A stretch of 35,637 nt of DNA from Candidatus Omnitrophota bacterium. GTDB lineage: Bacteria > Omnitrophota > Gorgyraeia > JAFGIU01. A program made the translations under genes and the position numbers. The notes under the pieces are model-generated. The model ran no database searches. It was not told the DNA's origin and worked only from the letters and a program-made list of their open reading frames with translations. The DNA lies in contig JAFGIU010000073.1 in assembly GCA_016929445.1 (NCBI GenBank), positions 1 to 35,637 of the forward strand, given 5' to 3'. Below are positions 9,511 to 35,637 of the stretch, piece by piece (position 1 is the first letter of the stretch; each line of letters begins with the position of its first letter).

Positions 9511-12500
9511 TTAGAGGGCGGAAGTCAAGTCCACGGTGGCAAAGGCGGCGTCGGTGAGGGTGCCTGTGGCATCCGGCAATGGCGTCGCAGCTGCTGCGTG
9601 CCAGTCATCGAGCGTCTTCTCGCCATTGAGAACCTGCCGCGCCAGGGCAATGCGGGCGTTAACGGCCCGCACAACGGGTTCAACAAATTTTCTCAATTCC
9701 TCATGCTCCCCGCTGAGGGGCTCCACAGTCCAAGCTGGATGCCATTCGCGCTCCAAAGAGTCCATTAAAAGTCTTGCCTTGACCGGATCCGCTGTCCTAA
9801 CAATCTCAGTGAGAGATCTCTCCACATCACGGGGTAATTCCAAACCCAGCAAACGCGAAGCAGCCGCTTTTCCCAATCCACCGGATAGCCGGGGCCGCAG
9901 CCCGGGAATGTTAATGGCCGACGGAATTCCTTCGAAACGCAGCATTTCTCTCAGGAGTTCATCCAAAACCGCCAATGCGTCTGAATCATTGGCGAGCACA
10001 ATTTTGATGACCCGCACAGCCTTACGCTCCCGTGATGAATCCGTCATCCACACAGAATCATAGTGAGAGAAAGCCAGTCGCGTGGTCTCCGCTCTAGCAC
10101 TAAAGTCACTGGCATCAGAGTACTCAACCAGAACTTGCATGGACTCTCCATCTGCGCGGTCCAGGGTTACTCCCGATTCCAGAAGCGATTCAAAAAGCTG
10201 TCTCTGCGAAGACCCCTCATCCCAACGCAAACGCACCGCATTCAAGAGAGCCTGCTTCCTTTCCTTAATTTCACGGGGGTTTATTTGAGTGCCCGTGCGC
10301 ATCTCAGCCACCAGGGCATCAGCAAAGGCCTGCGCCGGATCCTCATCCCTCATAAAATTCTCTATCAGAACCCGGGGCCGGATCCCAAGCTCTTCGCACT
10401 TTTCAAGCATTGACTGCAATCTTGTTGCGCGATCGCCAAGAAACATATGAATTCCGCTCATGTAGAGGGGTCCCGAAGCATCCACTGCCAATGCAGCGAT
10501 CCTTTCCTCAAGTCCGGAAATCTTTTGAAAAACTTCCCCGGATACTTGGATTTCGAGCTCTTGCCTGGCAAATTCAGCATAAGTCATAGGTAACATCCCG
10601 GCATTCTTGGCGCGGTGGAATACCGCTTCCACAAGATCCATAAGCACTTCCAGCCCTACGGGTTTGCCTTGAACAGGAAAATAACCCGTAAATCTTGTTC
10701 CGGATCCGGCACCCCCTTCATGACTGTCCACATGCAAATGCCCGCCGGACGCGGTTACTAATTCATGAATGCTATGCAATCCCCTTCCAGTGCCCTTTGC
10801 AGTCTCTTGATTCTCCGGCGCCCTCCACCCCAGCGGGAAAAACCTCAACTCATCAAGGCTCTTTTGCGCAAGCCCCGGACCTTGATCTTTCACACTGACC
10901 GCAACCACTGGACGAAACTCCAGCGCATTACTTTCACACAAGAGCCCGTCTAAATCGGCCTGACCGGCGTCCACTTGCCGCAAGCGCAGAACAACCGACC
11001 CCCTCCCCAGCTTCTGTTGTATTTCTTTGTAGTCGAGCACCCAAGGCACTCTCACACCTTCCACCGATTGGGGAGAAATAGAAACCGGATCTCCCCGACT
11101 CAGGACCTGCTCCGTGCCGCCCTCCACATAAACAAGCTCTGCCTGAACCACAACTGCTGCGCTCCCCCTATTGGTGATCCGGCGCTCAATCGCCAGTTCA
11201 GCATCAGAAACCCCGCCCCGCAGCATTTTTGCTTCCCAGGGACCCCGGGCCAATCCTTCAGAGGGAACCGAAATACGGTCATCGACCGTTGCACCCAAAA
11301 GAACTAACGGCAGAATGGCATTGTCCAAACTCACGTCCACATTCTTCGGATCTCCCGGGCCAGTGGAACTCCCATACTTCCAGGCATTGGTCAGGAACTC
11401 CCACACAGTTTCCCTGGCAATAAAAGGCAGACTCGGTCCTTGAACATTCAGAGTATTTCCGCCATCCACGATTTGATAACTGAACGATGGAGATCCAAAC
11501 TGACGGGTGGCCTGATTTACTAAGTCATGCGTCAGTTGCCGGACATCCACCCCCTCTGCAAGCTGAGCCAACTCCCCTCCTTGCGCAAGATCCCTAAGGA
11601 GCTGCAACTGAGGCGCCACTTGGGTTTGCCAATATCCTTGTCCGGCCCCCGGAGCGAAGGAATATGCACTGCGGGTGTCCCGGAGTGGATCCAAAAATTC
11701 CCGGGCTTCCTTATTTAGAGCATCCGAAGGGATAGCCTGCTCGAACTCATCGATGAGTTCGTAAATTTCTTCATAGCGCGCATCCATGGCTTGAGCAGCC
11801 ATTGCAGCCCGTTCCAGCACAAGGTAAAGCATTCGATTGCGATACTGCGCGGCATCTTTGGAATAACCCGGCTGCCACCGGGCCGCATCCACTAAATGCG
11901 CAGCGACAACCAGAAATTCACCGGGGCTAAGTTCCGGCAACTGGATCCGGACCCCAGCCAAACTCAGCATAAACTCGTGCAATTCATTCTCATGAGTCTC
12001 AGCAGCAGCGGCCGCGGTTTCCGGCATCAACCCCGCCTGCACAGCCCAATTTCGAAGACCTTTATGAGAAGCCCGCCCCTCTCCAATACCCTCATTGATC
12101 AGAGGCGATAAGAAATACGGGTCAACTGCAAGGCCCTGGATCCAACCCTCCATTTGCCCAGTCACAAAAGTACTGAAACCAAATAGAGCAGCCTGTTCTG
12201 CCGAAGCCAAGCGGTGCGCCAAGCGCTCCAAAAGGCGCCCATCCAGAACATCTCCATTTGGATACTGTCCTTTTAATTCGCTTATCAGCTCTTGGGCAAA
12301 CGGCTCTTGCCGCAATTCCTCCAGACGGCTTCCAAGTGTCTGAATCCACTTAACCTCCTGAACCTCATGATAGAGGGCTTCCAACCGGAGCGCAGGATCG
12401 CGGCGTGCGCTATTGAGAACAACAACGCGGCTAGACGATCCACTTAGCGGATCACGGAGAAGCCCTTCGTAGGCAGGCGGCCCGTCTTCTCCCAGATCGG

Positions 12501-15500
12501 TAATATAAACAGGCAGACTCTGCAGCCCTTCCTCCAACTGATCCAAAGCGGCTGATCTCTTTTCAGCTGGAATCGCATGCGAGCCCTGATCGAGGAGTTT
12601 CCGCAACTCCTCCTGCGCGATGGGCGCTGCCCCGGAAAGGAGGCTGTTTAAGTCATATGTCCGCAACTCTTGCTGGTTCCACACTCCGATATCCTTGAGC
12701 GCGCCGCCTTCAGAAGAAGCAGCCAGGTTTAAACGGCCCCCAGAATGGCTCAGCCATCTTTGCTCTTGCCACAAGACAACACCGTCTGGACCCTTTATCT
12801 CGACTGTGATTGCAAGCGCCCCTTGTGACGCAGCCTGCAGAAGGCTGGAAATATCCAGAAGCAGATTCCCGTTTTCGATTAGGGTGCCTCTCGGCGCATT
12901 TCCCTGCCGGAATCTGAGATCTCCAGCAGGCCATTGCATTCTTATCCTGCGCGTGGGGATGCTTATCACAACCTGCGCGTCTTGAGGCAAGATACGTGCC
13001 CAAAACTCGGCATTGGCAATTTGCAGATAAGGGGTTTGGCCTGCGTACAGGCTTAAAAGACCGGGCGCATAGCGCCCAGACACATGGATAAGTTGACCCA
13101 GGCTCAATCCGCCGGCTTTTATCACAAGCCCAATAGCTTGGATATGATGATGCTGCAGCAGATACTCCACGAGAGCCAATCCGAGCTGCTCGTCATTCAA
13201 TGAAGTTTCTGCTCCAATTGCACGCGCCAAGCCTGCGCGCGGGTTGAGTAATGGATTATCAAGATACCTTGCGAATTCAGCTTGCTTATTTGTTTCAACC
13301 TCAAGAATCTTTCCGAGAATTACCACGGCATTCTCCCTAACCGCAACCACCTTGCCCAACACTTGTGCCGGACTGAGCCCCCCGCCCTGGCCGTCGCCGG
13401 TGAGAATGCCAAGAAGCCGCTCTCCGGCAAGTTGAGGGGATCTCTGATGCGCAGGTATTTGCAGAGACTCATACAGAGAATCCAACCATCTTGAAGAGCT
13501 CGGCGGATTATCAAGAACTTCTTCAATATGTTCGATCAATGCATAGGCAACATGCAAAGAGGTTTTTCCGTACGGCAGAGACAGCTGTTTTTGTCTCAAC
13601 AAATAATCCACGATTGCGTTTAAACCAGCGGCTTGGATGTCGGAGGTAACCGCCGCTTCGCGCTCCGATGCAAAACCAAGCAGCGAAGGCACGCCCGCTA
13701 AAACATCTGCAAACCCAATCCGGTTCTGTTGCGAGGCTGCTAAATAGGCTCGGTCAAGGCGCTTTGCCCAAGATTGCGGCGCCTCGGCACTGGGAGGCTC
13801 CTCAGCAAGCGGTGGATCGGTTTTCAACCGCTCATGGACTGTTCGCAATATACCTCCAAAACTCTCTTCTCCTAATCCTAAAGAATCAAGCAATGCTGCC
13901 CTAAATGCTCTTGCCTCAACGGACAGATTGCCGCCTTCTGATTCCATGCTGTCACGTATCCCGATGTAGCACACAACAAGAAGAGCCAAACCTTGCCGCT
14001 TGGCCGCAAGGTCCCCACCCTCCATAACCGGGAGTCTCAAATCCCTCATCGTGGGCCCGAGGCTCCTGAAAGCTGAGTCCACCGCTTGATCGCCATCAGA
14101 ATGGTAGCTTGTGTACTCTGAGCCCCGAACCAGTGAAACCAACCGATAAAGCACATCAGGGGAAGTGAGCGCCTCGCAAAGCGCTTCGGAGTGGGCACCC
14201 CCATCAACTGCTGTTTGCCAAGAGACAACTTGTTCAAGGCCCCAAACTTGGTGAAGCTCAATGGCTGCGCGGCTCAAGTCATCCCAATACTTCAGACTCC
14301 CACCCCCGCCCTGGCCGTCGATTTGCAGCCTCACAGACTTCGTTGCCAGGATTGTGCGAGACGATGGAGTCGAATTGCGATTCGACAGCACCCTCAGCGA
14401 AGCGGTCTCATAATTGGGTGGATTGCCCGCTTTGAAGGGCAGAAGAATATTGCAGGTGTTGTTTGGAGCCTCCTCCAAAACCACCCGACTTAACAGCGAC
14501 TCCTGCAAGACGTCGACTCCACCCAATACCACCGGGTAATCAGAATCGGAAACCAACTGCAAAGCTACCGCTCCAGACTGGATTTCATCCCCCAAGGCCC
14601 TCGGAAGGCCACCGAGACGTATGTAGTAAGTGTATGCTGCAAATGCTGTTCCCGGGCCTATACCTGTATTCCCTTCTTCTGCAACCCAGTCCGGCAATTC
14701 ACTCACTTGCCGCAGGGTTAATTCTCCGGAACAGGAAGCCAACGCCGTCTCCCATGAAACCTCTCCGCCCCCGCCCTGGCCGTCGGTAAGCCACGCTTGA
14801 ATGGACTTGGTGAGCGATTCCATACTCTCAAAGTCCAGGCGAGGAGATCCCGGCTTCTGCGAAAAAACAGCTTTGAGACCTGGGAGAAGAATGTCCTGGG
14901 CCAGGCCTACCCAGAAGTATTCAGGATCATTTATATTTGCAGCGCCTGAGAGAGCCCCCAGTTTCTCCAGTTCATGCATCATTGCCAAAGGAACTCGGTC
15001 TTTCGGTGACTCACCAATTGGCTGATAAGAAAATACCGAAGCCGTCTCTATCAGAATATCTGCATCTGAGATCCCAGATGTCGACCCTATTTCGCCCATA
15101 AAATAATCATGCCAGACTCTTAAGCTTGCAGGGTCTGTCAAGGCCTGTCTCAGGGCCAATAACTGCGGGGAGTCTGGAGCCGCTTGCGCTATTTCTCTCA
15201 AAAGAAGCGGCAGCGATAACGACGGAGTCGTCCGGGCAGCGCTGGCCTGGATTCCTAGGGAGCGCCCAGGCATTCTCACGGGCACTTCACCGGACAGCGC
15301 CGACACTTCTTGCTCCCCGCTCAGAACCCCGGAAAGGACAACACAGGCCTGCTCGGGACTTCCGTGGATATTTTGTACATTGCACAGATGGTGCACAGCT
15401 GTAATCAAACTGTCATAGCTGATCAGATAACCCACGCCGCCATCGGATCGAAGGCTGTCGCTCAGCCGTCCAATTTGGGCAAGCAACCCTTTGGTCACGG

Positions 15501-18500
15501 CCCGTTTGAGAACTGCCTCATTGTGCAGGTTCTGTGTGCCTATTGCGCCAGGCCGAAGCAAACCCTCCGCTTCCATCCTGTAGCAAGCCCAAGACAGTAC
15601 ATCCGGATTCACCTCTGCATTTTCCAAAAAGACATCAATAAAGTCTGGAATGTCAATGGGTTGCCTGTTCTGCTGTGGCATTTGACGGATTGTGCGGTTG
15701 TACTTGTGGATACGTGCAGTCATGTCCCGGACCCACGGAACCAGAATGGCCGGGGACACAAGTTTTTCCGTGAGCTGGGCCTGCAAGTCCTCCGAAGCCC
15801 ACTCATACTGGGCTCTTAAAAGCGCCTCACCGGCCCACGTGTCCATCTCCCGTGTAAAGGCTTCATTGGCTTCAGGCCCGAAGATCTCGTCTTGGATTCC
15901 GTAGAGCAGCGCGCGGCCTCGAACACCGAGATTCCAGTTAAATGTAATCAAACCCTCTTCCGATGCAGTCAGCCGGCGAACACACTCAGCCTCCAACGCA
16001 TTGAGAAAGTCTGGAAGATTGCGGGCGCGTTCCATCCCTTCATTAGTATCATGAGCATCCCGCACATCCTGTCCCACCCCGCGCCAGCGCGTGTGGTTGG
16101 TAACTGCATCAGGCATGTCTTGCGGACGGTCATTGGGGTTGACTGCGCCGTAGAGTTCCAGCGCTTCATGGAAAGGCCCTATGCCGCTGGGATGGAAGGC
16201 AGCTTGCGGGGTGAGGGAAACCGGGTTGTCGAGGGCGGGAACAGGCTGACTTGCGGTTAATTCCCAGAAACCGCGCGCATTTCCGTTGTCTTCAATGAGC
16301 TGAATCTCGCGGCCGCTTGCGTTAAAGCCACGGATATAGTCCGCCAATTCACGCGAGATCACCCCATCCGTGTGGAGTTTGCTTATCCGGAGCGATTCCA
16401 TTGTACCCAAAATGCCTTGCCCCAACTGCACCGTCTGGGCTCTCCCCTGGCTGTCCACCACATCTCGAACTCGAATCGGGGAGGAAGCCGCCCCGGGCCC
16501 ATCCCGGAGTTCGGCTCCGTCCGCGTCCAGCAGCGTGTATTCATTGGACACTCCCGTGGATTGCCGCTGCACTCCGCCCCGGTCGTAGAGCCCACCCTCA
16601 GGATCATAGCTTTTGCCCATGAACGCGCTCGAGGGACCCGAATTCGGGGGGGGATAGCGGTCTGCTCCGGCTCCAGCTGCTTTGGGATCAAAACCATCCT
16701 GGTAGGGGTCTTGATAACCCCGTCTTTCATTCTCCCGGATATAGATATTCCGCATCGCAGCGTAAGAGAATTGTGGGTAATCCCTCCAATGGGCGTATAT
16801 ATCGAGAAATGTCGCGTAGGGATCTAGCGGATCGTCCCCGTGCAATCGCAGGACCTCGGCCCAAATCCGGAGTTCTTCGGTGAAGGCTTCGTTGGCTTCA
16901 GGGCCGAAGATTTCGTCCTGGATGCCATACAGGAGTTCGCGGCCGGTTTTGCCACGGGCTGCGTTGTATCGAATGAGAGCCTTTTCCGCATCGGTCAGAG
17001 TGCGGGTGCTACCGTCGGCTTTTTCGATTGGATTTTGACTCAATGCGGTTTCCAATGCGGCAACAAGATCTTCTGCGCTCAAAGACGACCAGGCCGGGGC
17101 ATTCTGGTCAAAGAGATTGCGCAGGTCCTTGCCCGCGCCACGACCGAGGGTGTGGGGATTGAGGCCTTCCGGTAAGTTTACGTCCCGGAAATACCCTTCA
17201 ATGAGGAACTCGTGGAAAAAGGCAATGGGGTGGGTTGCGAGGCGTTTGGATATCCAAACAATCCCATCTTCATCCACAAAACCCCGGATATTCTCGTTGT
17301 CCTGGATGAGGTGCACTTGGGCCCCGGACTGGCGAATTATGCCAAGAAATTCCCGCACACGGGTGGCGGCTTCCGGCCCGATATCTTGGAACTGTCTTTC
17401 AAGCTCAGCCAACGGCTGCTCAAGCTGCCTAGCCAGCTCATCCGCTTGGCGCTGCGTCAACTTATCTGTCTGGTCCTCGGTAACTCTGGCTTGGATTCGC
17501 TCATTCATACCTGGCTTCCGCACCCACAACGGGTCCCATGTTTCCGCGTCCTTCAAATACCCGTTCTCGTCAACACTCACCCGCCCGGTGTGGAGGGTTT
17601 GAGAATCAACTGACGCATAAATCTTGCCCATGGCTGCGGTGGCAAGGCCAGATGCTAGCTTTTGTTCCCTATTTACGGCCGCAACGAGAATTTCCTGAAC
17701 TTTGGCTTCATGGGCCTGGATTGCGCGGGCCGCCTTTGCCCCCAAATAACGGCGGTAGGCCTTGTGATGGAAACCGCGGGAACCCTTAAGGTACTCCTCG
17801 ATGAGTTCGTTTCGACCGTCAACGTCTTGTAACGCAGCGCTGACTTCAGAAGAAGCCATGCTCTTTTTCCCTTTGTTCCCCTCGGCCAGCACGCGCTCCC
17901 CAGCGCCCAGCACATGGGCCAGATGCCTTTCGTCCTCTTCAATTTTCCGTAAGAGATTGGTGGCATGATCAAAGTCCGGGGCCTTAAACCAACTGCCCGC
18001 AAGCACGCGCATGGCGAATCCTGCGAAGAGACCGGCGATTCCCCTCAGGTTTGCATCGTGAAGCGCAGTCACCGCATTCCAGCGCGCAAGCTTGAGCTTG
18101 CGGCCCAGGGAAAGATGGCCGTTTAAGATCCGGAAACGGTGTTGCGCAAAACGCTCCCGCCAATAGATCTCCCGAAGGTCCTGGTAGGCAGCCGCGGATT
18201 GAACAGCGGGTTGATCGTCATATCGGGTGTTGATCGCCAGGACCCATTGAGGCTGGGTCTGACCCTGCAACTGGACTTGCATATAGGCTGCCGGGGGCCC
18301 CTTTTCCCCTCGGTTGCCCAGATCCGCTCGATAGATCGGCACCTGCCTGAAGTTGTAATAGCGGCGCGGGCTGAAGCGCAGCCAAACCCGAGCAGCCCCT
18401 ACAAAAACTGCCGCAGCAACCAGACTCAGGCCCACAGCACCCACAATGGTGGTAGCCAAAGGCACGGACACAGCCACTCCAAAGGCCACAAAACCCACTC

Positions 18501-21500
18501 CAAAAACGGCGAGTCCCTGATAAAGGCGCGCATCTCTCAACAACTTTCCTTCGTAGGGCCGCACTAGATTTTCGAAGAGGCTCCCTGCCGCGCCCCGCAA
18601 GAGCCCCCAGAGCGTGGTGCCGCGGCCGTTGACGCGGTCAACGGCCGAGCTAATGCCGCTCCCGGCCCGGCGGCCCATAGCGCGAAATACAGGCCTGAAG
18701 ACTCGCCTCAATCCCATCACCACAACCGGCACAACCAAAACCACCCCTGCAGCAGCAACACCCATAGCCGCGCCCGCTGCCAGACCCGCGCCCGCGCTCA
18801 GGGCAATCCCCAAGCCGGCGATTCCCGCAACAGGCACCCCAAGGATCACCGCGCTGCGCGCAGGATGCCGCAGCACCAGACGAGCCAAGCCCAGGGCCAG
18901 ATGAACCAAGAAAGGCGAGACCAGCACGAGCGGCACGGCGACGACTGCAAGAGAAAGTCCTCCCGCACTCAAGGCCGCGGCCCCGACCGCCAGACCCGCG
19001 GCAAACCCAAGGGAGCCTAAACGCACGGGCCGGGACAAAATTAGACGCACAATCCTGCGCACAACCCGCACCGGAACCAAAAGTGTTTGAACAGCCTTGA
19101 TGCCTGCAAGGGACTTGGCGCGCTCGGAAAGCCACTGCCTGAATGGCTTCAATGCTGCGTCAATTTCTGCTCGAGCCGCGGCCCACTCGGCCCGGGCTTC
19201 GCGTGCTGCCCCTGCGGTGGCCTGCCTTTCCCGCGCAAAATCTTGGCTAATAGCGGCCCTCCCTGCAGCCCATTGCTCGCCAACTTTCACTTCCGGCACC
19301 TCGATCTCTCCCAAACGGGAAGCGATTACAGGCGCAAAGATCCGGGAAAGACCCAGTACCATCAAACCTACACTCAAGGCAGGAGCCAGTTGAATCCCAG
19401 CGACCAGCGCCACGCCTGCGGCCAGAGCCGCCCCCGCAGCCACGAACACCCGCCGCTGGGTCACCCAGGCATGGAATCCCGCAAGTCCGGATGCCTGAGC
19501 GCGTTCAAGGGCCGGGGCCGTGCTGGACTTTACACGCCCCACTGCAGCCATTCCAGTCTGGTGTTCTTCCTCCGGGGAAGCCGGCCCTTGATCCCAACGG
19601 CGCCTGGCCACACCCGCGTAATACGCCAAAAAGCCCGCGGAAATATCCAACGGTGACACAAGGAACGCGGCCAGTCTCGAGAGCGGGCTGGGTCTTGTGG
19701 CCCTTTGGATATGCTTTGCAATCAGTCCGGTGCGGGGTGTGTTCTTGCTCAAAATCGGGGCAAAAAGTTCTTGTGTGTCTTCCCCGGTCAGCGGGCTGGC
19801 AGAATTCAATTGTGCCTGTAAATTCGCCGGCAGTTCAGAGTCTTCCACCCCGCGCACAGACATTAACTTGGCCGTATCCCAACGGATCGGAGTTGCGTCC
19901 TGCGCAGGTTCGGGCCACAACCAGTCCACATTGGCCACCAAGGCATAGGCCAAATTGCGGAGTTGGTCTTGATTGATCGCGCTTCCCCATTTGCGCGTTG
20001 AAGAATCCCAGGTCAGCAAGGTGCCGACGGACGCAGCGGCGGAATTTACATACAGAACCTGGTCTTCCCCCTCTTGAGCCAAAAGAACATGGACGGGTTT
20101 TCTCTCCGAGTTGAAGCCGCTCTCCTCAAAAAACCGGATTGCCCGGACAGAGGCCAAACCCGCTGACACTCTCCCAACTGCAATTGCTGCTTGGGAATTG
20201 CGGCCCAAAGTATCGGCTATCTCGTTAAAGACCTTCTCCAGTTCTGCACAGATTGGATCCCCTTGCGATAGCGCATAACCCGGAGACGGTTTCACCTTTG
20301 CCTTGCCTCTGGCAGGATCCTTGGCGTCTGCGGGGTACAAAGACCACCCTCCAGGACTGCTGAGTGGGCGCACAGCCCCTTTCCCAGGCAGGGAAACAGG
20401 CCCCACGTACGGATGAAAGGCTTTTGATTGGGCGCCTTGTGCTTTTCCATGCCACATCAAACCGCCATTCTGCATCGCTCCTATACCGTTTGCCACTCGT
20501 CCCTGTCGTTCCTGGGCATCGCTTGCGGCTTTAGCTTGTTGAACAGGATCCTCTCCCGCAGCCCAGATGCGCGCGCCCGTGGTGGCGGAGTTCCACGCCT
20601 TCCAAGACCGCACCACATCGTCTTTGCCCACCAATCGCGCCATTGCGGCAAAAGCAGTTGGAGAGCCGGCATAGGAGAGAACGGCTACAGCGTGCTTCAG
20701 CCGTGTGCCGAGAACGCCCTCTGCCGCCACCTCTTGAGCCCGGCCGCTGAGGACTGCCCGCACCACCGCAAAAGGATGGGATCGCATCAAGCTCCGGACG
20801 ATTTTCCGTGTCACATCATCTGGGGGTGCATTGCTCATCCGGCTCCGAATCAAATTCTCACGGCGATTCCACTCCTCTTGCCCCACGGAAGCTTTGAGGA
20901 CCTCTCCCAAGACTTTAGGATCGCGGCTGATTTGATCCCAGTGAAGACCAACGGCCAAAGGCATGCCCGCCAGTTCGGCAATCGCGGCAACCGCCTCCGC
21001 ATCCAGCGAAGTCCCGTAACCCGAGGCCAGAGCCTCCAGAATCATTTGATGCGAGGCCAGGGCTGACCGCAAGTCAGTGGTCCCGGGATTCAACATTTGT
21101 TGGCGCAGGTTGAGCATCAAACCGGTTTCCTTGAGCCCGTCCAGGGCTTGCTTGCGCAAACTTTCCGGCAAACCGCTACTTCCCAAAATACGCGCCAGAT
21201 GACGGACTTCCGGATTCGGCCCGGTTGCATCCAGGAAACTGGGGACTATTTCAGTGTGGGGGTTTATATTTAATCGACTTCCAAGCGAACTCAAAACCGG
21301 AACTCCCTGCTGCGCCGGGGCCAAGGCCGGGTCGGTCCATTGATTGTTCAGGACTCGGTGGACAGCAAGTTGGGTGGCGGCTTCAGCCGCATCACCGATC
21401 ATCCGGGCCTTCTCATGCCCCTGCATTTTCAAATCATTCAGGTTGTCGGAGCCTATCAGACCGCGCAAATCAGACAGCGGGATTGTGTCCCCGGTCATTC

Positions 21501-24500
21501 TGCCGCGAATCTCCTCCGCCATGGGAATCCCTCCCGGCGGCCCCTGCACCGGAACACCAAAAAGGCTGTCATAATCCCGGAAACGGATCTGCTCCAGGGT
21601 AAAGCGCTCTTTGCGCAGGAGAGAGCCCGCAGCCCAGATAGACACGGGAATCCAGGACAGATCGCCCCTCTTATCCATGACATCTTGCCAAGCCACTTCG
21701 CCCGCCACCACGCCGCAGAGCCATGCCATCTTGCTTTCCATGCTGGCCGCGGCGTTGCCGCGTTTGCCCAATTCAGCGTCCCATCCCAGGAACACGCGGT
21801 ACAGTGCCTCGTTGCGATTTTTCTCGCCGTTCATCTTGCGCTGCATGGCCCGCGCGATTTGCGGGTAGCGCTCCCAGTCCCGGAGCTGCTTGCGGCGGTA
21901 CGCGCCCAAACCAAACTGCGCGTACAAGTCCGCGTCTGCCAAAACTCCGGCCGCCTCTTCAACGCTTTGCCAATCCTCGGACACCGCAGCAAACTGAAGG
22001 CGTCCTGGATCGCTGCGCAGGGTGCGCAGCCAGTGCTGGCGCCGGCCTTCCCTATATAGGGCTTCTGCGATTAATTCAGTCTGGCCTTCATAGGCCTTAT
22101 TGAGCACAATCACATCCTGGCTTGTGACCGGATCCTTGCCTATGAAGAGAGGGCCACCCTTGAGCCCGTTCGGATGCGTGCCCCAATGCACGGCAGGCGC
22201 CTTTTGGTATCCCTTGTCCACCAGGGCAAAGGTGCTAAAGCCAAGGGCGGAAATTCCAAAGCAAAGGGCGATGACCCCCACCGGAGCCAGTAGGATGCCC
22301 GCGCCCACGGCTCCTGCAGTCCACAGAGTTTTTCCGGCCCCTGCCCAATCCTTGGTGATAAGCTGGACGGCAAAGGTGATTCCAAACACCATCACTCCCA
22401 AGGCAGTCAAGAGAGCTAATGCCAAACTCGCCGATACAGCAACCAGGAATCCTGAAGCCACTAAGGCCGTCCCCACCAGTAAAGCCGTCCCGGTGCGCAG
22501 ACCCAAACGCCCCAGAACTGAACTGACGCGGCGCAAGCCGGGGCGCAACCGCCAGCCCTGGGCCTGGGGCCAAAGGCCCTCCTGAAATTCAGAGAACACT
22601 GAAGACTCTGATTTCACCATGGGATGATCCAAGAAAAGGTCTTGGATCTCTTGCTGAGACCTTGCCAGAGATTCTGCCGCCGCATCCGGGACTGCGGAAA
22701 AATCGCCCCAGACCACTCTTTGAGGCCCGCCCAGGCGGCGCTCCTCCGCCTCGATCCACAACTGTTCCAACTTGGCTGGCGGAGGGTTCTCACCGTGAAG
22801 CACGGAGGCCAGGGTTTGAATCGCAGGCATTCGAAGCGGCTTGTCTTCATGCCTACCTTCAGGCGTAATATTCACTTCAAAGGTGGCCAGGAGTTCCAAG
22901 GTTTCTATGATTTCCGCGCGGGCCTGGGGGGCATTCTTGGGACGCAACTCGCTTAACGTCACCCCTCCCGGTGAGGTCGTGGCATGCGAATCCAGCGCCA
23001 TCGCGAGGCTACCCAATAACTCCACACTCTTTTCGCGAATCGTTTGACTTTCCTCCGGCGCCAGCTTGCCGCCCGCTGATTTCATCTGGATGTCGCGAAG
23101 GACGCGGACCAGAAGAAGGACAGGGTCGGCCTGCGCAGCTTTATCCGCTGTCCGCAGCTCTGTATCGGAGGAATAGTTCCGAATGAGCTGCACGGCTTGT
23201 ATTGCCAAGACCTCAAGCGCGCTGAAGGCCTGCTCACGCAGCTCCTGTGAAGGCAATTGCTCGTGTTGCCCCGGCTCGCCGTTGATCAAATGGCCCAGGA
23301 TTTGGATTTCTTGGGCAAGGGATTGCCACGAGCTCGGAGGATGCTGCCGGACAAAGTTTGCGTAAGCCCGAACTGCCGGGGCGGCAAGGGCCGGCGGGCC
23401 CTGGAGACAGTGTTGCAGGAAAGCACGGGCTGCCTCTGGGTTGCCGATTTCCGTGCCTTGCCCCAAGTTCCAATCCAGATACCAAGCACTGGCAATTTGA
23501 TCCTCGAGTGAAGCGGATAACAAATTCTGTATGGGTGTCCATGGCCTCTTCGCTAGGACAGATGCCCAGACCTTCTGATTCGAATTTTCGTAACGCAATA
23601 GCTCTTGATCTTCTATGCGGCCCAGCATTGCCTGAGCCACGGCATGGTGCAGGCTGCGGTCTTCCTGAAGCAACCAAGCCAAGTCCTCAGTGTTTCCCTC
23701 ACGGTGGCCTTGGGCCAAGCGCTCCCACTCATGCAACGTGTATGCAGACACACCAAAGTCCCGGGTATGAACTTCCGCGCCAAGCCGGTGAGCCCAAAGT
23801 TCGACCCATTCATCCCCCTGAAGAGCAAGCTCCTGTTCCAGACGCTCTAGGTTGGCTTTGAGTCTGGTGACCTCAGGACTTTGCAGCGCTTGAGCTCCGG
23901 CTTGTTCCAGCCGGGTGCTGAGTTCCTTTTGGTGAGCCCGGGCAAGGCCTTTGATTTTTCTCCGCCTGAGCCACGCCCCGGGACTCCGCCCGCCCAATCG
24001 CGCAACCCAGGCAAGCTCCGCCAATTCGCGGTGAATGGCTTCGGCTTGTTCAGCCTCGGAACGGCTGGCGTTCACCACAATTACGGACTTGCCGCCCACC
24101 ATCCCGTGATACGCCAATTCCTCTCCGCTGACCAAAGGCACTTGGTAAACCGGCACTGCGCTTTGATCTTCCCCCACACCCCATGCCCTTGCCTCCCGGC
24201 GCAAACCATCCAAGCCCGGAAGTTGAAGCGCCAGCGGTGCGGCCACGGCCAAAATTCCCAAGCCGATCAAAACTGCCGGAGCTGCGGCAGGAGCCGCCAG
24301 CAAGGCCATTGCCACACCCAAGCCCGCGACAGCCAGGCCTAACACCGGTGCCTGAGATCGCAGATAGGAGCTGAGGGACCAGCGAGTTCTATAATCTTCA
24401 CCGATTTGCGTATCTGGATATTGCCTTTGAGCTGCCTCAATGCGTTGCTTCTCGTTGTAGCGGTGAGCGCGCCACAAATTGCCTCCGCGAATGATCACAT

Positions 24501-25743
24501 AGCCCAGCAATCCGACCGGAGCCGCCAACGCCGCTACAGGCAACACAGCCGGAGCAAAGACAACGGCCAGGCCGGCTGCCGCTGCCAAGACTCCGACTCC
24601 GCCGATGCCCCATCGCAAACGCATGATCTGCATTCCCATGCGACGCACACCGCCCGCAAATCCGCGGGCTGTTCCCCCAGGCCACAGATTCTGATTGATG
24701 CGCTTCTGAATGCGCTGCACGCGAGGGTCTTTGGGATCTGCGGAAGGCAAGGGAAGATTCTGAAGTAAGGTTTGGACTTGGCCGCGCGAAAGAAGTGTTG
24801 CGTCATCCCGCGCCAGCGTGTCTGCCAAATCAATAGGTTTAAACTGATCCGATGGGCCCATGCTTTTTTGGGCATAGGCGGAAACGGCTGCTGGGGCGTC
24901 TGCCGATGCAGCTCCAGGCTGATCATCAAATGCAGCTTGGGCCGTTAATACAGTCCGGAAAGCCAGTGCTTGCTCAAGACCGTTAACTAAAGCCCCAGCA
25001 AGCTCCAGTGCAGGCTTTTCCGGTAAATCATTAAACACCCTTTTTAATTCCTCCGGCAGGCCTCTATAATCATCGGTTTTTTGCCACTCATTGAGGGCTT
25101 CTTGCCACACGGCTTGGCTGATCTGAGCACTGATATGGTGCTCTCTAAAAAAGCGGTCCAAATACTGTTCTTGAATCGAGACTTCTCTTGTGAAAAACTT
25201 TCCAGCGGTAACATAATTCAGTTCCTGATCACCCTGATACCGAATAACCGAAGGCCTATTTTCACTTATTTCCCGCACCAAATTTGCCAGGAAACTCGAT
25301 ATCTCAGGTTGAACCATGAGGCCCCACATTCGAACTTCAGCTTTTTCATCAAACAAATTCTTTGCTCTGAGTATCTCGAAGAAGCGCAGATAATCGTCTT
25401 TGTGCGAAGGACCAAACCAGGAGCGCGCCACTTGCCAGGCTGCCTCATCCTCTGTTTTCTGCGCTGCGGCTGCAAGCATGGCAAAGGAATAGCTGAGTTC
25501 CGGTTCTACAGAGCCTACTAGATTGGATTCTCGGAGGACCTGACGGAGCCTGGCAGCAAAGGGAGCGCTGACGGCGAGCTCGTGGGTCACAGATTGCTTC
25601 GCCTGCGGCTCGCAATGACGAGCCAGGGGTCGCAATGACTCGATGGGCGCGGCGACACTCAGGTCCACGCTCGTAAACACAAAGACCTGCGCCATGACCA
25701 CAGCGATCAACCGAAACCAAAGTTTTTGGGTGAGTTTGCTCAT
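9511..25743 (-). CDS. Giant 5,410-residue exported or membrane protein with C-terminal GHKL ATPase domain
   Basis: One uninterrupted frame begins with ATG at 25743 after an AGGA. Residues 1-32 form a signal sequence (basic start, WFRLIAVVMAQVFVF, then SVAAP), followed by SLRPLA, a sequence style I associate with Omnitrophota giants. Ala/Val-rich hydrophobic segments lie near residues 375-420, 463-510, 1085-1176, 2098-2138, 2253-2351 and 2408-2458. A diverged module recurs near residues 531, 1186, 2466 and 4404. A duplicated segment covers about 2799-2963 and 3141-3303. Gly-rich DGQGGG linkers lie near 3650, 3805 and 4110. A HATPase_c domain occupies about 4730-5020 with His4739, Glu4782/Asn4786 (N box), Asp4953-x-Gly-x-Gly (G1) and Gly4984-T-G-R-G (G2). 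Long helical stretches fill the rest. Function is unknown; surface, adhesion or predatory roles are guesses. It is transcribed alone. Confidence 0.9.
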   Translation of the reverse strand: MSKLTQKLWFRLIAVVMAQVFVFTSVDLSVAAPIESLRPLARHCEPQAKQSVTHELAVSAPFAARLRQVLRESNLVGSVEPELSYSFAMLAAAAQKTEDEAAWQVARSWFGPSHKDDYLRFFEILRAKNLFDEKAEVRMWGLMVQPEISSFLANLVREISENRPSVIRYQGDQELNYVTAGKFFTREVSIQEQYLDRFFREHHISAQISQAVWQEALNEWQKTDDYRGLPEELKRVFNDLPEKPALELAGALVNGLEQALAFRTVLTAQAAFDDQPGAASADAPAAVSAYAQKSMGPSDQFKPIDLADTLARDDATLLSRGQVQTLLQNLPLPSADPKDPRVQRIQKRINQNLWPGGTARGFAGGVRRMGMQIMRLRWGIGGVGVLAAAAGLAVVFAPAVLPVAALAAPVGLLGYVIIRGGNLWRAHRYNEKQRIEAAQRQYPDTQIGEDYRTRWSLSSYLRSQAPVLGLAVAGLGVAMALLAAPAAAPAVLIGLGILAVAAPLALQLPGLDGLRREARAWGVGEDQSAVPVYQVPLVSGEELAYHGMVGGKSVIVVNASRSEAEQAEAIHRELAELAWVARLGGRSPGAWLRRRKIKGLARAHQKELSTRLEQAGAQALQSPEVTRLKANLERLEQELALQGDEWVELWAHRLGAEVHTRDFGVSAYTLHEWERLAQGHREGNTEDLAWLLQEDRSLHHAVAQAMLGRIEDQELLRYENSNQKVWASVLAKRPWTPIQNLLSASLEDQIASAWYLDWNLGQGTEIGNPEAARAFLQHCLQGPPALAAPAVRAYANFVRQHPPSSWQSLAQEIQILGHLINGEPGQHEQLPSQELREQAFSALEVLAIQAVQLIRNYSSDTELRTADKAAQADPVLLLVRVLRDIQMKSAGGKLAPEESQTIREKSVELLGSLAMALDSHATTSPGGVTLSELRPKNAPQARAEIIETLELLATFEVNITPEGRHEDKPLRMPAIQTLASVLHGENPPPAKLEQLWIEAEERRLGGPQRVVWGDFSAVPDAAAESLARSQQEIQDLFLDHPMVKSESSVFSEFQEGLWPQAQGWRLRPGLRRVSSVLGRLGLRTGTALLVGTALVASGFLVAVSASLALALLTALGVMVFGITFAVQLITKDWAGAGKTLWTAGAVGAGILLAPVGVIALCFGISALGFSTFALVDKGYQKAPAVHWGTHPNGLKGGPLFIGKDPVTSQDVIVLNKAYEGQTELIAEALYREGRRQHWLRTLRSDPGRLQFAAVSEDWQSVEEAAGVLADADLYAQFGLGAYRRKQLRDWERYPQIARAMQRKMNGEKNRNEALYRVFLGWDAELGKRGNAAASMESKMAWLCGVVAGEVAWQDVMDKRGDLSWIPVSIWAAGSLLRKERFTLEQIRFRDYDSLFGVPVQGPPGGIPMAEEIRGRMTGDTIPLSDLRGLIGSDNLNDLKMQGHEKARMIGDAAEAATQLAVHRVLNNQWTDPALAPAQQGVPVLSSLGSRLNINPHTEIVPSFLDATGPNPEVRHLARILGSSGLPESLRKQALDGLKETGLMLNLRQQMLNPGTTDLRSALASHQMILEALASGYGTSLDAEAVAAIAELAGMPLAVGLHWDQISRDPKVLGEVLKASVGQEEWNRRENLIRSRMSNAPPDDVTRKIVRSLMRSHPFAVVRAVLSGRAQEVAAEGVLGTRLKHAVAVLSYAGSPTAFAAMARLVGKDDVVRSWKAWNSATTGARIWAAGEDPVQQAKAASDAQERQGRVANGIGAMQNGGLMWHGKAQGAQSKAFHPYVGPVSLPGKGAVRPLSSPGGWSLYPADAKDPARGKAKVKPSPGYALSQGDPICAELEKVFNEIADTLGRNSQAAIAVGRVSAGLASVRAIRFFEESGFNSERKPVHVLLAQEGEDQVLYVNSAAASVGTLLTWDSSTRKWGSAINQDQLRNLAYALVANVDWLWPEPAQDATPIRWDTAKLMSVRGVEDSELPANLQAQLNSASPLTGEDTQELFAPILSKNTPRTGLIAKHIQRATRPSPLSRLAAFLVSPLDISAGFLAYYAGVARRRWDQGPASPEEEHQTGMAAVGRVKSSTAPALERAQASGLAGFHAWVTQRRVFVAAGAALAAGVALVAGIQLAPALSVGLMVLGLSRIFAPVIASRLGEIEVPEVKVGEQWAAGRAAISQDFARERQATAGAAREARAEWAAARAEIDAALKPFRQWLSERAKSLAGIKAVQTLLVPVRVVRRIVRLILSRPVRLGSLGFAAGLAVGAAALSAGGLSLAVVAVPLVLVSPFLVHLALGLARLVLRHPARSAVILGVPVAGIAGLGIALSAGAGLAAGAAMGVAAAGVVLVVPVVVMGLRRVFRPVFRAMGRRAGSGISSAVDRVNGRGTTLWGLLRGAAGSLFENLVRPYEGKLLRDARLYQGLAVFGVGFVAFGVAVSVPLATTIVGAVGLSLVAAAVFVGAARVWLRFSPRRYYNFRQVPIYRADLGNRGEKGPPAAYMQVQLQGQTQPQWVLAINTRYDDQPAVQSAAAYQDLREIYWRERFAQHRFRILNGHLSLGRKLKLARWNAVTALHDANLRGIAGLFAGFAMRVLAGSWFKAPDFDHATNLLRKIEEDERHLAHVLGAGERVLAEGNKGKKSMASSEVSAALQDVDGRNELIEEYLKGSRGFHHKAYRRYLGAKAARAIQAHEAKVQEILVAAVNREQKLASGLATAAMGKIYASVDSQTLHTGRVSVDENGYLKDAETWDPLWVRKPGMNERIQARVTEDQTDKLTQRQADELARQLEQPLAELERQFQDIGPEAATRVREFLGIIRQSGAQVHLIQDNENIRGFVDEDGIVWISKRLATHPIAFFHEFLIEGYFRDVNLPEGLNPHTLGRGAGKDLRNLFDQNAPAWSSLSAEDLVAALETALSQNPIEKADGSTRTLTDAEKALIRYNAARGKTGRELLYGIQDEIFGPEANEAFTEELRIWAEVLRLHGDDPLDPYATFLDIYAHWRDYPQFSYAAMRNIYIRENERRGYQDPYQDGFDPKAAGAGADRYPPPNSGPSSAFMGKSYDPEGGLYDRGGVQRQSTGVSNEYTLLDADGAELRDGPGAASSPIRVRDVVDSQGRAQTVQLGQGILGTMESLRISKLHTDGVISRELADYIRGFNASGREIQLIEDNGNARGFWELTASQPVPALDNPVSLTPQAAFHPSGIGPFHEALELYGAVNPNDRPQDMPDAVTNHTRWRGVGQDVRDAHDTNEGMERARNLPDFLNALEAECVRRLTASEEGLITFNWNLGVRGRALLYGIQDEIFGPEANEAFTREMDTWAGEALLRAQYEWASEDLQAQLTEKLVSPAILVPWVRDMTARIHKYNRTIRQMPQQNRQPIDIPDFIDVFLENAEVNPDVLSWACYRMEAEGLLRPGAIGTQNLHNEAVLKRAVTKGLLAQIGRLSDSLRSDGGVGYLISYDSLITAVHHLCNVQNIHGSPEQACVVLSGVLSGEQEVSALSGEVPVRMPGRSLGIQASAARTTPSLSLPLLLREIAQAAPDSPQLLALRQALTDPASLRVWHDYFMGEIGSTSGISDADILIETASVFSYQPIGESPKDRVPLAMMHELEKLGALSGAANINDPEYFWVGLAQDILLPGLKAVFSQKPGSPRLDFESMESLTKSIQAWLTDGQGGGGEVSWETALASCSGELTLRQVSELPDWVAEEGNTGIGPGTAFAAYTYYIRLGGLPRALGDEIQSGAVALQLVSDSDYPVVLGGVDVLQESLLSRVVLEEAPNNTCNILLPFKAGNPPNYETASLRVLSNRNSTPSSRTILATKSVRLQIDGQGGGGSLKYWDDLSRAAIELHQVWGLEQVVSWQTAVDGGAHSEALCEALTSPDVLYRLVSLVRGSEYTSYHSDGDQAVDSAFRSLGPTMRDLRLPVMEGGDLAAKRQGLALLVVCYIGIRDSMESEGGNLSVEARAFRAALLDSLGLGEESFGGILRTVHERLKTDPPLAEEPPSAEAPQSWAKRLDRAYLAASQQNRIGFADVLAGVPSLLGFASEREAAVTSDIQAAGLNAIVDYLLRQKQLSLPYGKTSLHVAYALIEHIEEVLDNPPSSSRWLDSLYESLQIPAHQRSPQLAGERLLGILTGDGQGGGLSPAQVLGKVVAVRENAVVILGKILEVETNKQAEFARYLDNPLLNPRAGLARAIGAETSLNDEQLGLALVEYLLQHHHIQAIGLVIKAGGLSLGQLIHVSGRYAPGLLSLYAGQTPYLQIANAEFWARILPQDAQVVISIPTRRIRMQWPAGDLRFRQGNAPRGTLIENGNLLLDISSLLQAASQGALAITVEIKGPDGVVLWQEQRWLSHSGGRLNLAASSEGGALKDIGVWNQQELRTYDLNSLLSGAAPIAQEELRKLLDQGSHAIPAEKRSAALDQLEEGLQSLPVYITDLGEDGPPAYEGLLRDPLSGSSSRVVVLNSARRDPALRLEALYHEVQEVKWIQTLGSRLEELRQEPFAQELISELKGQYPNGDVLDGRLLERLAHRLASAEQAALFGFSTFVTGQMEGWIQGLAVDPYFLSPLINEGIGEGRASHKGLRNWAVQAGLMPETAAAAAETHENELHEFMLSLAGVRIQLPELSPGEFLVVAAHLVDAARWQPGYSKDAAQYRNRMLYLVLERAAMAAQAMDARYEEIYELIDEFEQAIPSDALNKEAREFLDPLRDTRSAYSFAPGAGQGYWQTQVAPQLQLLRDLAQGGELAQLAEGVDVRQLTHDLVNQATRQFGSPSFSYQIVDGGNTLNVQGPSLPFIARETVWEFLTNAWKYGSSTGPGDPKNVDVSLDNAILPLVLLGATVDDRISVPSEGLARGPWEAKMLRGGVSDAELAIERRITNRGSAAVVVQAELVYVEGGTEQVLSRGDPVSISPQSVEGVRVPWVLDYKEIQQKLGRGSVVLRLRQVDAGQADLDGLLCESNALEFRPVVAVSVKDQGPGLAQKSLDELRFFPLGWRAPENQETAKGTGRGLHSIHELVTASGGHLHVDSHEGGAGSGTRFTGYFPVQGKPVGLEVLMDLVEAVFHRAKNAGMLPMTYAEFARQELEIQVSGEVFQKISGLEERIAALAVDASGPLYMSGIHMFLGDRATRLQSMLEKCEELGIRPRVLIENFMRDEDPAQAFADALVAEMRTGTQINPREIKERKQALLNAVRLRWDEGSSQRQLFESLLESGVTLDRADGESMQVLVEYSDASDFSARAETTRLAFSHYDSVWMTDSSRERKAVRVIKIVLANDSDALAVLDELLREMLRFEGIPSAINIPGLRPRLSGGLGKAAASRLLGLELPRDVERSLTEIVRTADPVKARLLMDSLEREWHPAWTVEPLSGEHEELRKFVEPVVRAVNARIALARQVLNGEKTLDDWHAAAATPLPDATGTLTDAAFATVDLTSAL
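10690..11550 (-). other. GHKL (HATPase_c) domain inside the giant protein, split by an inserted domain
   Basis: The order on the protein is LTHDLVN (His4739), N box ETVWEFLTNAWKYG (Asn4786), a stretch of about 160 residues, G1 VKDQGPGL (Asp4953), G2 GTGRGLHSIHEL and the closing GSGTRFTGYFPV. In sensor kinases N and G1 boxes are only some 30 residues apart. The inserted part (RRITNRGSAAVVVQAELVYV and following) looks like a beta-sandwich. All nucleotide-binding motifs are intact, so ATP binding is plausible. Confidence 0.8.
13383..13400 (-). repeat. DGQGGG linker, copy 3 of an 18-mer
   Basis: The 18-mer CCCCCGCCCTGGCCGTCG on the plus strand encodes DGQGGG on the minus strand. It occurs around here and at 14303-14320 and 14767-14784 within the giant gene. 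This copy lies near residue 4115. Confidence 0.7.
14303..14320 (-). repeat. DGQGGG linker, copy 2 of an 18-mer
   Basis: Same exact 18-mer, encoding QIDGQGGGGSLKYW near residue 3808 of the giant protein. Confidence 0.8.
14767..14784 (-). repeat. DGQGGG linker, copy 1 of an 18-mer
   Basis: Same exact 18-mer, encoding LTDGQGGGGEVSW near residue 3653. Copies 1 and 2 are 464 bp apart and enclose one module of about 150 residues. Confidence 0.8.
15835..16330 (-). repeat. Internal duplication of the giant gene, second copy
   Basis: Encodes IQLIEDNGNARGFWEL, PFHEALELYG and GRALLYGIQDEIFGPEANEA in order, matching the copy at 16855-17345. The last segment is nearly the same in both copies at DNA level. 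The HExxxxxY pattern is not the HExxH of zinc peptidases. Confidence 0.85.
16855..17345 (-). repeat. Internal duplication of the giant gene, first copy
   Basis: Encodes VHLIQDNENIRGFVDEDG, FFHEFLIEGYF and GRELLYGIQDEIFGPEANEA. The GIQDEIFGPEANEAFT segment is identical in the two copies; the parts before it have diverged. Confidence 0.85.
25591..25640. repeat. Dispersed repeat fragment inserted in frame behind the signal sequence of the giant protein
   Basis: The minus strand reads GTCATTGCGAGCCGCAGGCG and then AAGCAATCT, translated as RHCEPQAKQS at residues 42-51. This string is a common translation of intergenic repeats in many bacteria. The 10-mer TCGCAATGAC occurs twice, 20 bp apart (25610 and 25630). 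Confidence 0.7.
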
Positions 25744-31681: not shown

Positions 31682-31706
31682 CCCGGAAGACGCTAAGAGC
31701 CGGACT
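31672..31706 (-). terminator. Possible intrinsic terminator after the large partial gene
   Basis: On the minus strand AGTCCGG (31706-31700), a 13-base loop and CCGGGACT (one bulge) are followed by TTTATT. The stem starts at the stop codon of the upstream gene. It shares bases with the direct repeat, so the two roles may conflict. Confidence 0.4.
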
Positions 31707-34700: not shown

Positions 34701-35637
34701 CGTAGTCCACTATGCCTCCCTTAAAATTCATGCCCAAGCCTGAGGCAGAGGCCAGGGCAGCGGGGTTGCCCGCACGCTCGCTGGAACCAGGCATCCCAAA
34801 CCGCGGGCTGTCCAAGGCCGCAACCGGAGTGCCCAAGGTGCGTGTGTTCACAAAACCCTGCGGATCTGCAAAGTATTCCCTCAGGCCCCCGGCAGTCTCT
34901 TCTTCGCTTGCCAGGTACCCGGCAATCTGGCCGGCAGCCCAATCAAGAATCCGGCTTTTAACAATTTGGACGCGGTCATTCTTCCCCGCACCCTTCTCCG
35001 CCTTTAATGCCTTGAGTTTTGTGAGGCCCTGTTCCGGGCCAAAAAGCGCAATGAGGCCTTCCCTTGCCCCGGTTTCGTCCGACCCAACCAGCTGTTCGGC
35101 AATGCGTTCTGCTTTGTGCCTGATCTCGGAAGGCACGATCACCACAACCGGATATGCAGATTCTCCTTCGCCTAACGTGACTCTCCGGACTCTATAATCC
35201 GGAAAACGACCCGGCACAGGTTCTGAACGGAACCGTACGGCCAGTTCCCCGTCCGGATCGGTCTGCTCAAAAATCTCGCTCAGCACCAGAGGAGTCCTGG
35301 GATCACTCTCAACACCCATGCTCTCAAGCGCTCCGTTGGCGCGATCCAGCAAGATTGGGTAAGGATAGCCTTCAATCAGAAGAAAGCGGTCTGCGATATT
35401 GCGCAGCACAAAAGAATTCTCCGCCTCGGGCAAGCTGGGATCCCGGACTTGGACCACTCCATACTCGTAGAGGCGGCTGGGATATTTCCCGCCGCGAGCC
35501 TGCGCCCCAAACGGAGGCAATTGTCTCCCGGGTTTGAGCACCTGCAATTCCATTTGAGAGGGGGCTGAAAGCCGGACTCCTGCCACCATGGGACGGGCAT
35601 AACCGGTCCCGCCCAAAGAAACTGTCTCGATCGATTG
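31705..35637 (-). CDS. Large protein of unknown function, 5' end outside the window
   Basis: The frame is open to the right edge; 1,310 residues are seen, ending ...ARTAEILAGQL at a TAG. A TTG at 35616 is merely an internal Leu (ETVSLGGTGY). I recognise no named family. The N-terminal visible part is mixed alpha/beta. Around residues 418-440 a segment LANELQHILDG resembles the zincin helix HExQH but has Asn428 in place of the first His. The text ASGLGMNFKGGIVDYEALEE recalls sequence stretches I associate with other giant Omnitrophota proteins. Residues about 990-1200 are Ala/Glu/Leu-rich helices in TPR-like pairs (DHYEEALTKLRMAIYLLD, EMAEKARRELARIL). Style and neighbourhood suggest kinship with the 5,410-residue protein. 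No transmembrane helix is visible in this part. Confidence 0.8.
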   Translation of the reverse strand, partial: QSIETVSLGGTGYARPMVAGVRLSAPSQMELQVLKPGRQLPPFGAQARGGKYPSRLYEYGVVQVRDPSLPEAENSFVLRNIADRFLLIEGYPYPILLDRANGALESMGVESDPRTPLVLSEIFEQTDPDGELAVRFRSEPVPGRFPDYRVRRVTLGEGESAYPVVVIVPSEIRHKAERIAEQLVGSDETGAREGLIALFGPEQGLTKLKALKAEKGAGKNDRVQIVKSRILDWAAGQIAGYLASEEETAGGLREYFADPQGFVNTRTLGTPVAALDSPRFGMPGSSERAGNPAALASASGLGMNFKGGIVDYEALEENWIRDPGILKEYASRIQAVVDRLDGEWEFTAPDFDRHRGSQPVVFELRHTDTNKRVELRLTGNFNATMATSRDGEPEIGSFVIPIEVLWWNTRLVGDPAAPSLLIRSQLANELQHILDGIVPVPNQRIEHGVFPADLETELRPLARELATYIYHGRRASSQEWREARDWLQSQVQGAALRADLTLRLAYRLQYSERFGTGQNVEAIMTHLLETQRDLLKEHLRVLYSARINRATRAELGLSERDSAILEGLALSGGYAAAKVRSARGATEDQMPGLEHGPDKLATAVLRRHLQQQGFQVAIVGTETRKVQHDEDEQFLVGELLGSRDGVEQAVPLVADVVDGSLNQVRGEGGASSMVLWGESLVPLPCDMRVAVIVYEDDEQGSVTRGLDALSGEEARDPGRILERIAKAKGVSLESLHRIEHYERYQRKPYRSWVGRAIRKILGAREPERPVEEVESPGLVAAAWAAGLRPDLDREFNEDPHSVIWGVVDPMEAQFAMAAVLKNARLKAVAFPLGALEKEPGVLVSEEDWPEKANTWNWQAPRALGLLRRNPNRDSAVFTRFRGELEARLRENGLPKREWETLTQRSQDFDATCAEKAADTQDRFLKPEDFFAVREDGTYDVTLAVTGLDAQSSFQLGGVYPVRQGLRVESLVLKDGNWSRVEQILSVSPELVMSFVEEFHYHMGEAQSADRAGDTRAQDALDHYEEALTKLRMAIYLLDQDEALKAELARYVPLHMEEHVFEIFRQRLQAMGLRNEALAGWKSHLGRYTVPAAASMRQAIQLYEDTRAFEMAEKARRELARILQASGRSQIGRYTHWQLQAWNDTAREHFQNGLANLRESAQLYLDLGENAEYREITREIRNLERALSQIQLIEEGEQIMKQARAMAQGLEIYELYLRGYGDSPPEAADYIRVAEMMEQAADTRFAPALSAEATIDALGRARGLREKAALLEWQAAQETERRPGRRDLFPGVRDFTTVNPARTAEILAGQL

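Follow-up and report, generated by a model that had tools for sequence, protein, structure and literature searches.

The window, a stretch of 35,637 nucleotides that makes up one whole contig of a 2.43-Mb genome (137 contigs, 97% complete), encodes on its reverse strand a giant protein of 5,410 residues. From its sequence we read this protein, with a probability of roughly 0.6, as a Sec-exported, membrane-tethered, multi-module envelope protein within an Omnitrophota-wide class that is defined by its two ends and not by its middle. The frame is intact, it has a leader and a tail at the exact C-terminus in common with other long frames, and one of its domains, for which a fold was predicted, is shared with other giants. 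The frame and its two ends are:

9511..25743, reverse strand: complete frame of the giant, 5,410 residues, ATG at 25743 and stop at 9511
25636..25743, reverse strand: N-terminal leader, residues 1-36, predicted Sec-type signal peptide with Q19 within the hydrophobic core and an AAP end
9514..9537, reverse strand: C-terminal tail, TVDLTSAL-COOH

At the base composition of the 16.2-kb gene, a run of 5,410 codons without a stop has a chance of about 10^-80. The GC content by codon position is 66/46/58% overall, and the order is constant in nearly all blocks of 500 codons, which gives no hint of a frameshift. The frame contains no N, and in a k-mer check no exact 25-mer occurred twice within it, which makes a collapsed or mis-joined internal repeat unlikely; an assembly chimera was rejected on this basis and on that of the single codon phase. 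The original prediction of an intact gene without stop or frameshift, with a signal sequence and multiple hydrophobic blocks, thus agrees with the open reverse-strand frame, the Sec-type N-terminus (MSKLTQKLWFRLIAVVMAQVFVFTSVDLSVAAP) and at least six hydrophobic blocks beyond the leader, as judged from Kyte-Doolittle hydropathy only. The promoter that had also been proposed did not stand out, since one promoter-like site lies upstream (26007-25980) and 1.0 +/- 1.2 are expected in shuffled sequences; the promoter and terminator scans around the gene were at chance level and were not counted as evidence. Rfam and tRNA scans of the window gave nothing of use. The suggested Omnitrophota host is borne out, as the genome belongs to the same class as Candidatus Omnitrophota DeMMO3_15, where giant frames are known according to the available part of the source (PMC10066038).

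The leader has a basic n-region, a hydrophobic core and small residues before the predicted cleavage site, which are features of Sec/SPase I substrates, and it would route the chain through the Sec translocon. When the N-terminal 1,080 residues were searched against the own genome, only the first 49 or so recurred, on other long frames. A 48-aa leader query matched 18 places in this genome, the window included, and the 17 others were all N-terminal in their translated frames. The aligned leaders have the consensus RLxALxxAQVFLxTSxxxxxAAP, with a conserved polar Q or E inside the hydrophobic stretch; this is unusual, and a generic signal peptide has no need for it. Profile A1, built from 18 of the own-genome leaders, identified 23 leader frames in the genome at E <= 1e-3, namely the giant (E 8.4e-18 to a profile that contains it) and at least 22 others, and the other members had first been found from the leader of the giant alone. 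Beyond this genome, profile A2 matched leaders in 50 of 384 class genomes (E <= 1e-3), and a sample of the phylum contained the leader in 38 of 285 genomes, eight of which are outside the class. The 95 places outside the own genome, including nine that were rows of A2, fall mainly in large frames (63 in frames of at least 1,000 aa, 17 in frames shorter than 300 aa, median 1,407). The lengths of these frames include 20,415, 9,878, 9,619, 8,666 and 8,031 aa. In the own genome, several leader-bearing frames run off contig ends, which indicates that this assembly breaks inside such genes.

Two arrangements of leader genes were also observed. Candidatus Omnitrophota DeMMO3_15 (contig C94; L132, L134) has two leader frames in tandem, one 20,415 aa long and the other at least 8,666 aa. 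In four genomes of family f17 (L135, L136, L137, L139), a leader protein of about 160 aa is located upstream of a large leader frame, and in three of these loci (L135, L136, L139) there are additional small frames between the two.

A dispersed repeat adjoins the leader of the giant:

25591..25619, reverse strand: repeat copy (CGTCATTGCGAGC...GCGAAGCAATC), in frame directly behind the leader

This palindrome-like repeat (CGTCATTGCGAG...GAAGCAATC) is present inside several leader-bearing frames (window 25591-25619; L026 697; L035 6723-7215; L037 12378), and in the giant it is in frame and supplies the codons just after the leader. In contributing in-frame codons, here near the N-terminus, the dispersed repeat resembles the palindromic elements of the Rickettsia type that are inserted within genes, although the sequence differs. 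A 13-bp tandem palindrome (GGCACCGGTGCCT / CCCGTGCCAGGCA) occurs at window positions 851-883 and 27150-27190, between genes or at gene ends.

At the other end of the protein, the motif [LI]xx[ASG][LI]-COOH terminates 14 of the 16 complete leader frames of the own genome, a few of which have weak leader scores (down to E 1.65), and four of 109 other frames in the fetched regions, with a P value of 3e-13 that is optimistic because the pattern was written post hoc from the own-genome tails, that of the giant included. The count of four overstates the background, since one comes from a leader protein, as a fragment fetched a second time, and three are large frames, of which one has an N-terminal hydrophobic stretch and two are cut at the 5' end. 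The matching tails are LTSAL (the giant), LERSL, LQSAL, IQSSL, LQGAL, LAEAL, LQSAL, LESAL, LELGL, LESSI, LAASL, LEQSL, LASAL and LDSSI, and the two remaining leader proteins end in AAAIIARQV and AAAIIDRMV. None of the 19 leader frames of other families has this motif, and a looser ending, [ASGN][LI], is present in nine of the 19 versus none of 22. Frames picked by the duplicated domain described below, and not by leader or tail, provide a less circular check: [ASGN][LIV] ends 11 of 16, compared to five of 40 neighbours (P 7e-5), and two of those five are tails of neighbouring large frames.

Several of the domain-picked frames share a longer tail, LRITxIDxEEIxEWxxAQxEVLRSL-COOH. The corresponding profile, A7, matched 77 places in 27 of 292 genomes, with up to 13 per genome, and 55 of the 77 are in frames of at least 1,000 aa. 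Among the 30 places with a locus at hand, 27 matches run right up to the stop codon; 20 of the 30 had played no part in building the profile, and of these, 17 end at the stop and the other three within 4 to 7 codons of it. A7 had no match in the own genome, which contains the short form only. There are also leader relatives without such a tail: the 20,415-aa frame ends in EFKQL, and others in RHQVQ, YHIN or HLYF. We dropped two known signals as models for the short tail: a T1SS signal, because an N-terminal Sec leader is present, and the beta-signal of outer membrane proteins, because the last residue and the spacing differ.

The conserved C-terminal residues may be a recognition signal for a putative sorter, retention factor or C-terminal protease. 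A tail that is this short and has no transmembrane stretch could instead mark unfinished or mis-sorted giants for degradation or quality control, through a tail-specific protease or a PDZ reader, and the S-A-L-COOH end of the giant would fit the form of class I PDZ ligands. It would be costly, however, for every giant to carry a degron, and the R-S-L ending of the other families misfits the class I form. We find this explanation unlikely.

The giant has neighbours on both sides. Upstream, a small frame is accompanied by a subtilase of 1,476 aa that has FG-GAP repeats, and another large frame is present in part:

31705..35637, reverse strand: 3' portion of this other large frame, which the contig end truncates, with no Pfam or NCBIfam family and the tail EILAGQL

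Downstream are genes of ordinary kinds, for RNase Y, YmdB, RadC, XseA, a Glu/Gln-tRNA synthetase, 5-formyl-THF cyclo-ligase, a class-V aminotransferase and an AAA_14/DUF4143 ATPase. The published view of Omnitrophota giants, as far as the available text goes, is that they have few domains, are poorly conserved and serve in adhesion or predation (PMC10066038), and the protein could accordingly be an ordinary giant surface adhesin or coat protein whose ends resemble those of others in composition only. The leader, with E-values that reach 1e-16 per genome, and the tail profile, with about 65 non-seed places, nevertheless go beyond compositional likeness, and the neighbouring subtilase, a useful contrast on the same contig, starts with an ordinary signal peptide and lacks a tail of the giant type. 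We consider this alternative highly improbable.

The body of the giant contains hydrophobic blocks, two families of repeated modules and one recognizable ATPase domain:

24211..24615, reverse strand: hydrophobic blocks, residues 377-421 and 463-511, two likely transmembrane hairpins by hydropathy only
23986..24171, reverse strand: four-copy module, copy 1, residues 525-586
22216..22494, reverse strand: hydrophobic blocks, residues 1084-1176, Kyte-Doolittle only
21853..22212, reverse strand: four-copy module, copy 2, residues 1178-1297
18379..19455, reverse strand: hydrophobic blocks, residues 2097-2142, 2242-2353 and 2407-2455, Kyte-Doolittle only
18064..18360, reverse strand: four-copy module, copy 3, residues 2462-2560
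16849..17361, reverse strand: duplicated domain of about 145-170 aa, copy 1, residues 2795-2965, with H2844-E2845...E2849...H2864 and a zincin-like predicted fold
15826..16359, reverse strand: duplicated domain, copy 2, residues 3129-3306, HEALE at 3192
12124..12534, reverse strand: four-copy module, copy 4, residues 4404-4540, predicted strands and then a helix bearing HExxE, HEVQE at 4459
10669..10905, reverse strand: GHKL/HATPase_c domain, residues 4947-5025 (E 6e-10, 40 bits, cut-off 26.4)

The hydrophobic blocks would tether the protein in the membrane as hairpins. The hydropathy peaks end at residue 2457, and the last 45 residues contain no transmembrane stretch followed by a basic cluster. 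HATPase_c is the sole Pfam domain above the cut-off, and most of the body had no match in the Pfam and NCBIfam scans. The domain is also found in sensor histidine kinases, from which the giant differs in that it has no reported HisKA or receiver domain (none at E <= 1 in the Pfam scan, which divergent forms could escape) and in that the domain is placed behind an export-type leader. A BLAST of fragments of the giant against each other produced one strong pair, residues 2797-2962 and 3131-3304 (38-43% identity), and otherwise weak matches confined to the four-copy module; growth mainly by self-copying was rejected on these grounds. The predicted internal duplications are thus present as one two-copy domain and one diverged four-copy module, but most of the 5,410 residues are not copies at the sensitivity used; growth by copying of modules accounts for the two repeat families and not for the rest of the body. 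The four-copy module is also carried by a second leader protein of the own genome (L085 551-1003). No orthologue was found in the named genomes for a 4,990-aa part of the giant, in a search that possibly left out the own genome, and only the duplicated domain and the leader gave matches to the first 3,000 residues in other genomes.

The duplicated domain, which corresponds to no Pfam family, recurs in long frames and giants of other genomes in the class. It was found by a search with matches in 24 of 292 genomes, a number that includes the own genome and one genome, DeMMO3_15, that matches through the leader. In 22 aligned rows, H2844 is conserved in 19, E2845 in 20, E2849 in 19, H2864 in 20 and R2875 in 21, while E2920, N2927, G2940, D2943 and N2951 are kept in all 22. 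The giants selected by the domain (L216-L235) often have a HIQDAHCNxxAQ motif near the N-terminus; a protein with a related HIQDIHA motif (L087) had a weak match to ChaN/Tiki (E 0.023).

The model of the duplicated domain has a pLDDT of 88, and its best VIA match is selecase, a minimal zinc peptidase (rmsd 3.6 over 92 residues), with a Z score of 6.2, a level (below 8) that according to the note of the tool may reflect a common arrangement only. Other zincins came next, and it is because zincins recur near the top that these lists of middling Z scores were used at all. The model of the four-copy module has a pLDDT of about 80 in the core and 68.5 on average, and its weak VIA matches include IrrE/PprI (Z 4.8 for IrrE) and selecase, beside unrelated folds. 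Foldseek gave no match at E <= 0.001 for either model, and the best hit of the domain alignment in a profile search of the PDB was to designed helical proteins (E 0.019). The zincins, among them selecase and the minigluzincins, IrrE/PprI and SPRTN, have in common with the modules a predicted core of strands followed by a helix that carries the HE pair. They differ in that nearly all members here have HExxE (HExxxE in copy 1) instead of HExxH, and the scores are weak. The motifs in the giant are HEFLIE, HEALE and HEVQE, and the canonical HExxH is present in only one of the 22 aligned rows (a relative, L194). On the basis of the models, we tentatively read both modules as zincin-like, with HExxE replacing HExxH.

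The middle of these proteins appears to be a variable payload between the shared ends. In the giant it would consist of a zincin-like domain in duplicate, whose H-E...E...H pattern is conserved, four diverged modules of a possibly related fold and the GHKL ATPase, and in other members of diverged copies of cytosolic metabolic enzymes. Ten of 25 large frames scanned in the own genome, 23 chosen by leader and two by tail, have a Pfam domain above the cut-off: glutamate synthase with ferredoxin and FAD domains, an NTPase plus NDK, phosphorylase, SIS, ARMT1, HAD, a sigma/LuxR helix-turn-helix, glycosyltransferase and methyltransferases. In other families, five of eight proteins have such a domain, and the payloads are PGK; GlpX FBPase with class II aldolase and TIM; phosphorylase; PGM; and glutamate dehydrogenase with aminotransferase, phosphomannomutase and phosphomannose isomerase. 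One of six further proteins had a domain above the cut-off, TPR. Two leader proteins (L034 2540-4573 and L088 2728-6927) share a stretch that recalls SelO-type pseudokinases by eye and has no Pfam match. Growth elsewhere in the class seems to have proceeded largely by capture of domains between conserved ends.

An ordinary, separate PGK is present in 186 of 197 genomes and a separate NDK in the own genome, and the embedded copies of PGK, GlpX and NDK are diverged. PGK and GlpX are missing conserved residues, and the embedded PGK keeps 50 of the 111 columns that are invariant in 27 ordinary PGKs (from 30 loci, after removal of two and of a third that had a stop in the slice). The embedded NDK scores 64 bits, compared to 138 for the separate gene, and retains what we take to be its His-containing motif. 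The decay of the embedded enzymes, as judged from sequence, is mixed.

The two shared ends might be relics of common descent, from one gene that was duplicated and whose middles diverged past recognition, with ends that nothing reads. Most complete members do have both ends, there are many paralogues within one genome, and the four-copy module links the giant to another leader protein. The bodies nevertheless carry unrelated Pfam domains, and phmmer detected essentially only the leader between the giant and 32 other large frames of its genome. Neutral ends should moreover erode first, yet the long tail is flush with the stop codon at nearly all places checked (27/30). We give this scenario little credence.

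The hardest point for an exported protein is that ATP- and cofactor-dependent domains are located behind an export signal, with no obvious supply outside the cytoplasm. The domains could act in the cytoplasm of another cell or be non-catalytic binding modules, or the leader could be merely an anchor. In the last case, the leader would stay uncleaved and the long C-terminal part would be a cytoplasmic, membrane-bound scaffold with GHKL sensory and metabolic modules, as the GHKL ATPase, glutamate synthase, NDK, PGK, aldolase and other cytosolic-type domains behind the leader would suggest, along with the presumed His-containing motif of the embedded NDK. However, the basic n-region and the AxA- or AAP-type ends predict an N-in orientation and export of what comes after, the hydrophobic regions resemble hairpins that return the chain to the same side, and the loss of conserved residues in PGK and GlpX is expected of copies freed from cytosolic duty. 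An anchored scaffold is accordingly improbable in our view. For the exported, membrane-tethered protein that we favour, the most likely role would be at the cell surface, in contact with other cells or their components or in the processing of these. It is conceivable, though doubtful, that the dedicated signal peptide and the C-terminus of a small residue plus leucine represent an undescribed sorting or secretion route that marks up to dozens of giants per genome and delivers captured, diverged copies of the cell's own metabolic enzymes to sites beyond the cytoplasm, such as the surface or interior of host or prey cells.

Omnitrophota giants were already known and have been described as poorly conserved and of obscure function. 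The conserved ends provide a handle by which the whole class can be listed per genome and genes that co-occur with the tail can be found, and they permit export to be tested on a short fusion in place of the 16-kb gene. The duplicated domain, common to giants of many families, is a module small enough to express and solve. If the diverged metabolic enzymes behind the leader are exported, this would change the view of how these host-associated nanobacteria feed.

Seymour et al. 2023 described giant ORFs of Omnitrophota with a cut of 20 kb (PMC10066038), and a surface role towards other cells has been proposed in print (PMC10066038; PMC12057145), as far as the available parts of these papers go. 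Those ORFs resemble the protein described here in phylum, very long frame, several hydrophobic blocks and few annotated domains, but the giant, at 16.2 kb, is below the cut, and the shared leader, C-terminal tail and duplicated domain are not mentioned in the available part of that paper (PMC10066038). No shared leader or C-terminal tail of Omnitrophota giants was described in the literature covered, mostly open full text with few subscription papers or preprints. According to the available portions of the sources, the combination of an N-terminal signal peptide and a shared C-terminal signal around unrelated middles is also seen in the PEP-CTERM/exosortase, GlyGly-CTERM/rhombosortase and type IX CTD systems. 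No CTD family was matched in the giant in Pfam or NCBIfam. The tail described here, at 5-25 residues, differs from the PEP-CTERM, GlyGly-CTERM and LPXTG signals in being flush with the last residue, with no transmembrane stretch or basic cluster, and it is far shorter than the type IX CTD, which is Ig-like and spans about 70-80 residues.
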